From Candidatus Norongarragalina meridionalis (GTDB taxonomy: Archaea; Micrarchaeota; Micrarchaeia; Norongarragalinales; Norongarragalinaceae): DNA of 44,973 bases. Position numbers and translations under genes: made by a program. The stretch spans positions 1 to 44,973 of the forward strand of contig CABMDO010000015.1 of NCBI GenBank assembly GCA_902384935.1, read 5' to 3'. Positions 2,261 through 25,375 of the stretch are shown here, one piece after another. The notes beneath the pieces were generated by a model. That model did no database searches. It was not told where the DNA came from and was given only the letters and a program-made list of their open reading frames with translations. The first letter of the stretch is position 1; every line of letters begins with the position of its first letter.

Positions 2261-4887
<2,627 letters not shown>

Positions 4888-8267: not shown

Positions 8268-8912
8268 GTGCAAGTAACCATACCCGAAGAATTTTCGCAC
8301 GATCTGGCTGAAGAAACCGGACTGCACGCTGGCGATGGCAGCATGAACTATTATTCGGGAAACGGGCTCTATTCCCTGCGGGGAAACAAGAAAACCGACG
8401 CCGCGTTTTATTCCGAAATCGTACTGCCGCTTTACGAACAGATTTACTCGTTTAGACCCATTCTGCGGAAGTGGAGGGAAGTCATAGGCTTTCAGGTTGC
8501 CTCAAGCGTGTTGGTGGCGTTCAAACAACAACTTGGCCTTCCGATTGGACCAAAAAACGAGCTGCCCATACCAAAATGGGTTTGGGACAACGGTTTCGAA
8601 ACCGATTTCGTCAGAGGAGTTTTTGAAACCGACGGCTGCGTCTATCTTGAAAACAAGAATGGCAGGAAATATCCGCGAATGGAAATTTCCACCACGTCCG
8701 AACAGTTGGCGAAGGATTTGGCAGTCGCCATCGAAAAGCAGGGCATTCCGACGTCATACTGGAAACAAAGCTACTCGAACGACTGGAAGCCGCTCCATCA
8801 CGTATGCGTTAGAGGAATAGAAAACACGCGGCGTTGGATGGAAAAAATAGGAACAAACCATCCCACACAAAAGGCAAAACTATCCGCAGTCCGCGAGTTG
8901 CGAACGCTTTAA
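8268..8912 (+). CDS. Free-standing LAGLIDADG-family homing endonuclease
   Basis: Two LAGLIDADG-like motifs: LAEETGLHAGDGS and FVRGVFETDGCVY, spaced about 105 aa apart; 214 aa. Confidence 0.85.
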   Translation: MQVTIPEEFSHDLAEETGLHAGDGSMNYYSGNGLYSLRGNKKTDAAFYSEIVLPLYEQIYSFRPILRKWREVIGFQVASSVLVAFKQQLGLPIGPKNELPIPKWVWDNGFETDFVRGVFETDGCVYLENKNGRKYPRMEISTTSEQLAKDLAVAIEKQGIPTSYWKQSYSNDWKPLHHVCVRGIENTRRWMEKIGTNHPTQKAKLSAVRELRTL

Positions 8913-8969
8913 ATTGCCTTCCGCCCAAATAATGTCCAGGCCCCGGTAGCTCAGCCGGCAGAGCGACTG

Positions 8970-8995
8970 TTTTCGTTTCCAAAACGAAAGTCGAA
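8970..8995 (+). other. tRNA intron 1, non-canonical position 30/31
   Basis: 4-bp central helix CGAC(8964-8967)/GTCG(8990-8993), 3-nt bulges TG^T and AA^A, inner 8-bp helix TTTCGTTT/AAACGAAA with CCA loop. Confidence 0.82.
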
Positions 8996-9002
8996 ACTGT
9001 TA

Positions 9003-9038
9003 GCCGTCTAAGAGCTCCGAAAGGAGAGGAAGGCAGAA
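9003..9038 (+). other. tRNA intron 2, canonical position 37/38
   Basis: Central helix CTGT(8997-9000)/GCAG(9033-9036, one G.U), bulges TA^G and AA^A; contains hairpin CTCC-GAAA-GGAG. Confidence 0.78.
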
Positions 9039-9075
9039 ATCAGTAGGCCGCAGGTTCGAGTCCTGCCCGGGGCGT

Positions 9076-10530
9076 ATGATGGGGCGTATGGCTAGACGCT
9101 ATGAGAAGCTAGACTCGGTTGCTATTAAAATATTTTTTTGTCTGACACTGCTTACATTTTTTGCTAACGCGGATATGGTAGAATACAGGAGCGAAAATGT
9201 CGAAATAGACGGAAACACCTTTCTTGTGACTTTGAGTTACGAGAACACTACATCGGCACCTACCACGCATAGTCTTTTGAAGGTCAGAGTGGAAAGTGAA
9301 AATAAAACTATGGCGAGCGTGGGCTGGGTACGTATTTTAAACGAAGGAAAGGAAGCGGCATGGACGGACATAGAACTAGATTACAGAAATAACTTTTCGC
9401 AAAATTTGACTACAAAGAAACCACTAACTGCCGGAAACTACACTGTTATCCTAGACATCGGATCACACGCGAACAATGTGTTTAATTTTTCAATCTACGA
9501 GTATCCATCCGGGCGAATAGACAAGATCGAAAAAGAAGAGGTAACTCTAACACTCAACGAAGATGGAACTCTGCTCGAGACTATAAGGCAAATTTCTAAA
9601 ATTAACCAGACAGGAGAAATAAGAGTCAAACGCGCACAGCTACGCGGAGGACAGCCGTTTCCACCTGAACACATTATCGACGAGGTAGAGGTCTACAGAG
9701 TGGAAAAATACAAAACGCCGTATTATGAGGTAAGCGAATTATGGCCGGGGGGGTGCGACGGACAGTATGAAATTAACAGAACACGGAACGAAATTCAAAC
9801 ATGTGGGGAGTATCGCGAGTCCATGAACGACATCCAAATGCTGTTTAAAGCTAGGTTAATACCCAGAAACAAAACAATAACGACTGATTGTACTGAAGAG
9901 CAGTATATTAAAGACACAATTAAAATTGCGTTCGATAGACCAAATGTTGAGGTAATTGTCAGACTCAGACCCGGAACAAATATAGAGTTTAATGAAACCT
10001 CTGAAATGGGTTTTGAGGATAACTCGGGAATCGTAACCCCCATGCTAGATAAAAATCCTTGTTTTAAAAGCTCAGAGGGTTGGGATTGCTATGCACGAAT
10101 CGGCAATCTACCCCAAAACAAAACACTTTATTTATCTGCAGAGATCGTTGGTTACAAAAAAGACATACATGAAACAATAAACGCCGAGACAAAGAGAAAA
10201 AAGGAAATTAATGAAAGATACGACGCCGAGATCGCAGTCACGTTGATTATTGGATTCGCGTTGTTTATACTTACTTTAGTAACAATTAAGAAAACTTCTG
10301 ATAACAGCCCAGTTAACATTTATGACGCTACAGGCGCGGCTATACTGACTGTGTTAGCAAGTCAACTTCCATCTTTTGGTGCGGATATGAGGTACGCGGG
10401 CATAAAAGTGTTTATTCCGCTTATAGTGGGACTTGCTACGTTTATCGTACTGTATCTAATGTCTAGGTACAGCGAAAAAACAATAGATCTTAGAGAAAAA
10501 ATACGCGGAATAGTGAATATATCACATTAG
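9076..10530 (+). CDS. Hypothetical surface protein: signal segment, sequon-rich ectodomain, about 3 C-terminal TM helices
   Basis: 484-aa ORF; hydrophobic N-terminus IKIFFCLTLLTFFANA, many N-x-S/T, C-terminal hydrophobic segments; visibly more AT-rich than neighbours. Start codon uncertain. Confidence 0.75.
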   Translation: MMGRMARRYEKLDSVAIKIFFCLTLLTFFANADMVEYRSENVEIDGNTFLVTLSYENTTSAPTTHSLLKVRVESENKTMASVGWVRILNEGKEAAWTDIELDYRNNFSQNLTTKKPLTAGNYTVILDIGSHANNVFNFSIYEYPSGRIDKIEKEEVTLTLNEDGTLLETIRQISKINQTGEIRVKRAQLRGGQPFPPEHIIDEVEVYRVEKYKTPYYEVSELWPGGCDGQYEINRTRNEIQTCGEYRESMNDIQMLFKARLIPRNKTITTDCTEEQYIKDTIKIAFDRPNVEVIVRLRPGTNIEFNETSEMGFEDNSGIVTPMLDKNPCFKSSEGWDCYARIGNLPQNKTLYLSAEIVGYKKDIHETINAETKRKKEINERYDAEIAVTLIIGFALFILTLVTIKKTSDNSPVNIYDATGAAILTVLASQLPSFGADMRYAGIKVFIPLIVGLATFIVLYLMSRYSEKTIDLREKIRGIVNISH

Positions 10531-25263: not shown

Positions 25264-25375
25264 TGGGCCCGCGGGGATTTGAACCCCAGACATCCAGTTG
25301 TCGCAGTCAACAGCGGTACAAGCCCGCGGTCGTCATATAAGACTGGCGCTCTAAACCAGACTGAGCTACGAGCCC
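25264..25375 (-). tRNA. Intron-containing tRNA, best read as tRNA-Ile(UAU), intron 25300-25335
   Basis: Acceptor GGGCTCG/CGGGCCC, D-stem GCTC/GAGC, anticodon stem CCAGT/ACTGG, T arm TGGGG-TTCAAAT-CCCCG, A73; 36-nt insertion after position 37. Confidence 0.75.

Follow-up and report, generated by a model that had tools for sequence, protein, structure and literature searches.

The essential tRNA-Asn(GUU) gene of Candidatus Norongarragalina meridionalis carries two introns, one of them at the non-canonical position 30/31, and begins 27 nt past the stop of a free-standing LAGLIDADG homing-endonuclease gene. The reading that we consider probable is that this locus is a collaborative-homing unit, made up of a working, intron-bearing tRNA-Asn(GUU) gene and an adjacent, tRNA-specific endonuclease. 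Its basis in sequence is fivefold: the structure of the tRNA gene, the linkage between endonucleases and tRNA genes, an endonuclease tree that tracks tRNA isotype, an association of the introns with the endonucleases, and an empty site in a closely related genome. With somewhat greater reserve, we lean toward a broader proposal, in which a DPANN-wide LAGLIDADG family with isotype-specific clades spreads horizontally and, through collaborative homing, causes archaeal tRNA genes to gain non-canonical bulge-helix-bulge (BHB) introns, which would provide a mechanism for the spread of these introns. A preliminary description of the stretch of DNA analyzed here (44,973 nt of contig CABMDO010000015.1, hereafter the window) had rightly recognized the two introns, the 30/31 position, and the DPANN setting, but it took the tRNA gene for an isolated oddity and overlooked the endonuclease gene immediately upstream. 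The tRNA-Asn gene alone is of a known type; what sets the locus apart is that it is linked to a family of endonucleases whose tree sorts by isotype and which are associated with introns, and that an empty site exists.

Results

The tRNA-Asn(GUU) gene occupies positions 8940-9074 of the forward strand, where it matches Rfam RF00005 (52.9 bits, E 1.1e-8); ARAGORN, run without introns, did not detect it. Exon 1 (8940-8969) comprises tRNA positions 1-30, exon 2 (8996-9002, ACTGTTA) positions 31-37 with the anticodon GTT, and exon 3 (9039-9074) positions 38-73, and between them lie intron 1 (8970-8995, 26 nt), at position 30/31, and intron 2 (9003-9038, 36 nt), at the canonical position 37/38. Removal of both introns leaves a 73-nt cloverleaf with the anticodon GUU and the anticodon arm ACTGA-CTGTTAA-TCAGT, precisely as the preliminary description had it. 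That description had also called for a multi-intron-aware tool. Our own intron-aware parser, which allowed zero, one, or two introns anywhere in the anticodon region, scored stem pairs, the loop signature, and the bulge-helix-bulge motif, and was blind to the expected answer, placed the two-intron solution (30/31 plus 37/38) at the top with a score of 23.9, the second solution scoring 21.0. The best of the single-intron solutions, which we rejected, scored 19.4 and leaves 31:39 unpaired, in agreement with the earlier claim that no single intron restores this pair.

At both junctions all four pairs of the central helix form, with CGAC (8964-8967) facing GTCG (8990-8993) at intron 1 and CTGT (8997-9000) facing GCAG (9033-9036) at intron 2, both helices having been correctly described before, as had the 8-bp inner helix of intron 1 (8971-8978 with 8982-8989). 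The intron 1 motif, comprising the 4/4 central helix and the inner helix, was matched by none of 20,000 shuffles of that intron, while 1.5% of 20,000 shuffles of intron 2 matched the motif of the latter. Because its outer helix is just 2 bp (G24-C32 and A23-U33), junction 1 constitutes a relaxed motif. Folding revealed an alternative 5-bp register there (CGACT/AGTCG), which is a one-base slip of the central helix and equal in energy; of the two registers, only CGAC/GTCG yields a normal tRNA. A genome of the same genus (G001) encodes a tRNA-Asn with both introns at the same positions, where the substitutions preserve the helices, and with an additional third intron, of 31 nt, in the D-loop.

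The preliminary description had further proposed a search of the genome for any other tRNA-Asn. None was found among 37 tRNA matches in this ~90%-complete genome, for which a first-look tRNA filter had also missed the window tRNA-Asn itself, and neither pattern nor family searches of the same ~90%-complete assembly recovered an uninterrupted tRNA-Asn. The case for the window gene as the sole tRNA-Asn of the genome is strong but not absolute. The family of the splicing endonuclease, likewise left for determination, is the three-unit epsilon-2 (ARMAN-2) type: the EndA of this genome has 385 aa and matches the crystal structure of the Micrarchaeum (ARMAN-2) epsilon-2 EndA (4fz2) over its full length (E 7e-129). 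Epsilon-2 enzymes have been reported to cleave non-canonical introns at varied tRNA positions and with relaxed motifs (PMC4033280, PMC12397907), and the type of EndA encoded here would be suited to such introns. As had been pointed out, it is the anticodon stem that serves as outer helix at junction 2, and the intron-1-free fold does contain this stem; because it is complete only after removal of intron 1, ordered splicing, with intron 1 leaving first, is plausible. Multi-intron tRNAs have the DPANN precedent that the preliminary description assigned to them, in ARMAN-1/2 (PMC4033280), and 30/31 is the joint of the split tRNA-Lys in Nanoarchaeum and Staphylothermus (PMC4033280, PMC3218864), which together render the tRNA-Asn alone less surprising. 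A second tRNA of the genome (L037, C9:150125-150242) parses as tRNA-Arg(UCG) with introns at 30/31 (32 nt) and 37/38 (18 nt), with a single-intron tRNA-Arg(CCG) as an alternative of near-tied parser score, and positions 25264-25375 of the reverse strand of the window parse as tRNA-Ile(UAU) with a 36-nt intron at 37/38.

The gene upstream of the tRNA (8268-8912, forward strand) starts with GTG and encodes a protein of 214 aa, which is identified as a free-standing LAGLIDADG homing endonuclease by its match to Pfam LAGLIDADG_3 (E 2.5e-13), by an AlphaFold2 model based on an alignment with 31 relatives (pLDDT 96.3), and by its best fold matches in the PDB, all of them LAGLIDADG endonucleases (the TliVMA intein, PI-PfuI, I-Tsp061I, and I-DmoI). 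The first LAGLIDADG motif (LAEETGLHAGDG, 8304-8339) contains Asp23, and the second (DFVRGVFETDG, 8604-8636) contains Asp122; both aspartates are kept in all 31 sequences, within the invariant triplets G22-D23-G24 and T121-D122-G123. The two-motif LAGLIDADG fold is intact, both acidic residues are present, and DNA cleavage is predicted. It is a LAGLIDADG protein and lacks the Endo VII catalytic motif of the F-CphI family; by analogy, it may work like F-CphI, though outside that family. Its identity to the tRNA-Asn-adjoining genes of two other genomes of the class is 45% (G005) and 43% (G051). The composition of the endonuclease gene is foreign both in the window (49% GC, versus 56-57% for the upstream TruD and aRF1 genes) and in G051 (34%, versus 49-51% for the flanks). 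On the other side of the tRNA, 2 nt past its end, begins a 484-aa ORF (9076-10530) of 40% GC, in a window of 58% GC, for which searches of Pfam and NCBIfam gave no match; it was possibly acquired.

A scan of genome contigs recovered 51 relatives of the window endonuclease, in Micrarchaeota, Woesearchaeota, Pacearchaeota, Nanoarchaeota, Aenigmatarchaeota, Diapherotrites, some Hadesarchaea, and a few bacterial records. For 39 of the 51, a tRNA gene, located with Rfam and an intron-aware finder, lies within 200 nt of the endonuclease 3' end, against 1.2 expected from the tRNA density elsewhere in the same loci; in four of the 51 loci, the contig border falls shortly past the endonuclease. The adjoining tRNA may be on either strand relative to the endonuclease, and in six convergent cases (L101, L106, L116, L124, L126, and L134) the stop codon of the endonuclease falls 19 nt into the tRNA, where the conserved T-loop, in reverse complement, reads TGA, so that the tRNA gene supplies the stop. 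The window genome itself encodes a second LAGLIDADG gene (L005:1533-2282, reverse strand, contig C7), which lies tail-to-tail with a tRNA-Val(UAC) gene and overlaps its 3' end. Within the class, the family profile matches 70 of 301 genomes at 1e-10, inteins counted. A free-standing endonuclease adjoins an intron-bearing tRNA-Asn in the window (at 27 nt), in G005 and G051, and at loci L134, L108, and L128. No report of archaeal tRNA-linked homing endonucleases was found in the open-access literature. Phages were considered as carriers and set aside, IMG/VR having yielded five weak matches of 22-28% identity. Adjoining another endonuclease of the family is a tRNA (L091:1382-1494, reverse strand) with a 48-nt unaligned stretch in its T-loop.

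In a tree of 53 endonucleases, clades track the isotype of the adjacent tRNA across phyla, and not the host. The His clade (support 99/96) unites sequences from Aenigmatarchaeota, Nanobdellota, Woesearchaeota, Iainarchaeota, and Micrarchaeota, and the Met, Arg, Cys, Ala(CGC), and Asn clades are likewise sorted by isotype. With Asn and Ile merged, and for rows with an assigned phylum only, isotype changes 4 times on the tree versus 8 times for phylum. We read this as the mark of endonucleases that would be target-specific and move between lineages.

The tRNA-Asn 30/31 intron was found in 5 of the 301 genomes of the class (the window genome, G000, and G001, G005, G043, and G051) by a pattern search with 17 matches, 12 of which lay outside tRNA genes and were discarded. 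None of these five is among the 236 genomes with an uninterrupted tRNA-Asn pattern, which consists of 12 fixed bases, part of the 236 being chance matches. By inspection, and among the matches listed, endonucleases adjoin tRNA-Asn only in G000, G005, and G051. With genomes counted as independent, the association of the 30/31 intron with endonuclease adjacency has a Fisher P of 4e-6 (6e-6 with 210 in place of 236), a class-level statistic that involves three endonuclease-bearing genomes, two of them from one family. DPANN-wide, among the window's and the nearest groups, the 30/31 intron is present in 6/6 of the tRNA-Asn genes that lie 3' of an endonuclease (the window, L095, L096, L134, L108, and L128), and in the related tRNA-Ile(GAU) clade, introns at 30/31 or 29/30 occur in the neighbors at L097, L099, L107, and L105, as well as at L104, which was assigned by hand.

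Exceptions exist. The tRNA-Ile neighbor at L114 has no intron and that at L101 is ambiguous, L106 has a 37/38 intron only (by hand), and at L133, where the endonuclease match is more distant and partial, the tRNA-Asn has a 37/38 intron only. Endonucleases also adjoin intronless tRNAs for Ala(CGC), His, Cys, and Val, in addition to that at L114; introns are therefore not required for all family members, and the intron link may hold for some clades only. These cases show that members beside intronless tRNAs avoid self-cutting in some other way. Since G001 and G043 have introns and no adjacent endonuclease, the introns can also persist, or arise, alone. Compared by eye, intron interiors have little in common across families beyond the exon-complementary end, and for this reason we make no claim that the 30/31 introns seen in different families derive from a single intron by copying. 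D-loop introns of 29-56 nt were observed in the tRNA-Asn genes of L108, L110, L112, L128, G001, and G005, with up to three introns per gene; tRNA-Asn genes with D-loop introns are linked to family endonucleases or carry a 30/31 intron.

One genus of another family offers both occupied and empty sites, with a gene upstream of tRNA-Asn that is common to five genomes. In G054, G140, and G141, an intronless tRNA-Asn lies ~35 nt past this gene, and there is no endonuclease. In G051, an endonuclease is inserted between the upstream gene and a tRNA-Asn with introns of 16 and 13 nt, and both introns, each of 13 nt, are also present in G043, which has no endonuclease. G051 and G054 are sisters (support 100/100), with flanks that are 91% identical and with identical tRNA-Asn exons, and G054 is a closely related empty site, having neither introns nor endonuclease where G051 has both. 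On the unrooted tree of the genus, there are at least two changes of intron state. As the direction of change is not fixed on this tree, the difference could stem from a loss in G054 instead of a gain in G051; a gain of introns and endonuclease together in G051 would be the simpler story. G001 and G043 look like later stages, in which the endonuclease would be gone and the introns remain.

Discussion

Collaborative homing was described for F-CphI of cyanophage S-PM2, where a free-standing endonuclease cuts an intronless gene, while the intron blocks self-cleavage and invades via the enzyme (PMC6083498). For the tRNA-Asn locus, we infer a comparable sequence of cutting, protection, co-conversion, and splicing. 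First, the endonuclease would recognize and cut an uninterrupted tRNA-Asn gene, probably in its near-palindromic anticodon arm. Repair from an occupied copy would then transfer the endonuclease gene beside the tRNA together with the introns within it. The 30/31 intron, aided by the one at 37/38 and, in some relatives, by a D-loop intron, would split the site and spare the host gene from re-cutting, and the epsilon-2 tRNA-splicing endonuclease and a host ligase would excise the introns from the RNA, such that the tRNA still works. Finally, the endonuclease gene could be lost, with the introns left behind. The position of the 30/31 intron, ~5 nt off the center of the anticodon arm, we count against this proposal, the actual target being itself a prediction.

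A possible, though clearly less probable, explanation is that homing takes place without any contribution from introns, i.e., that the endonuclease, directed at the tRNA gene or at its flank, escapes self-cleavage through its own insertion or through sequence drift, with the introns as independent passengers. Its appeal comes from the endonucleases beside intronless Ala(CGC), His, Cys, and Val tRNAs, where introns are evidently not needed, and from free-standing phage endonucleases such as SegB, which function without them (PMC2988022). Independent passengers, however, would hardly be expected at a position that is very rare in the class and yet occupied in 3/3 endonuclease-bearing tRNA-Asn genes, nor would introns and endonuclease be expected to differ together, as they do between G051 and G054.

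We regard it as improbable that an ordinary multi-intron tRNA merely came to lie beside an unrelated mobile gene, with the tRNA serving as a general integration spot. tRNA genes are, indeed, common integration sites. The multi-intron tRNAs of ARMAN archaea (PMC4033280) would also fit such a coincidence, which is nevertheless difficult to reconcile with linkage at 39/51 loci where 1.2 were expected, with the fact that the linked gene always belongs to one family, and with clades that are sorted by isotype. An integrase, moreover, would leave a copied tRNA 3' end, and none lies downstream in the window. A genomic island with the tRNA 3' end as its attachment site was rejected on the same observation, no second copy of that end being present within the window.

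A role of the LAGLIDADG protein as an RNA maturase, aiding the splicing or folding of the introns, is very unlikely. LAGLIDADG maturases exist, and the bI3 maturase (2ab5) is among the PDB fold matches, but both catalytic acids are conserved in 31/31 relatives, G001 and G043 keep their introns without an adjacent copy of the gene, relatives adjoin intronless tRNAs, and the enzyme that cuts BHB introns, EndA, is encoded in the window genome. Least credible of all, a tRNA-Asn gene that has decayed or is spliced elsewhere into another tRNA would accommodate the equal-energy register at junction 1 and an unconstrained precursor fold ~6 kcal/mol below that with both motifs enforced, but not the intactness of every cloverleaf arm, the standing of this gene as the sole tRNA-Asn found, or the conservation of introns and exons in G001.

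The collaborative-homing unit that we favor resembles the F-CphI system (Zeng, Bonocora and Shub 2009; PMC6083498) in having a free-standing endonuclease gene beside an intron-bearing gene, an intron at or near the presumed target, and an intron and endonuclease that are separate yet linked, with empty relatives in existence. That system involves a group I intron, phage psbA, and an Endo VII-type enzyme for which cleavage was shown, whereas the present one involves BHB introns in a tRNA gene of an archaeal chromosome, together with a LAGLIDADG enzyme whose cleavage is predicted from sequence. A free-standing homing endonuclease in a tRNA gene region is also found in phage T4, where SegB drives inheritance of the region (PMC2988022); SegB differs in being a GIY-YIG enzyme with a target between tRNA genes, in the lack of introns, and in its location in a phage rather than an archaeal chromosome. 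With I-DmoI and I-Tsp061I, from archaeal rRNA introns, the window endonuclease shares its fold, its two-motif architecture, and a tie to BHB introns, but those enzymes are encoded within the rRNA introns, while the window gene lies outside the intron and adjoins the tRNA gene. The multi-intron tRNAs of ARMAN-1/2 and Thermoproteales are similar in combining several BHB introns, some of them non-canonical, with a broad-specificity EndA. For these, no linked endonuclease was found in the literature searched, and the spread of their introns has been ascribed to transposition (Fujishima 2010, as cited in PMC4033280). The Caldiarchaeum model (PMC3293823) likewise ties the gain of a tRNA intron to a mobile element that sits at the tRNA locus, although the element in that model bears a recombinase, in contrast to the homing endonuclease with isotype-specific clades described here.

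The processes behind tRNA disruption have been described as not yet identified (PMC3293823), and intron transmission as little known (PMC4496867). The locus and its relatives offer a testable agent for the spread of archaeal tRNA introns, which is an open question: the endonuclease has a predicted target, sister species naturally carry occupied or empty alleles, and the family is large enough for studies of its life cycle. Our reading suggests a role for some introns as shields against selfish nucleases, to which they would owe their persistence. If the endonucleases are isotype-specific, they would also furnish meganucleases that act on highly conserved sites. To our knowledge, collaborative homing is known only from phage and group I introns; if our reading is true, it would extend to chromosomal tRNA genes and to protein-spliced introns.

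One further locus of the family touches on a different class of intron. All 39 archaeal group I introns in PMC6125680 reside in rRNA, and none is listed for archaeal tRNA in PMC4033280. At L107 (JAQTMY010000001.1, Candidatus Nanoarchaeia archaeon STA_51), a tRNA-Tyr(GUA) gene at 3613-3877, on the 5' side of a related endonuclease, has its anticodon loop split by a group I intron (RF00028, 84.8 bits, E 8e-22).
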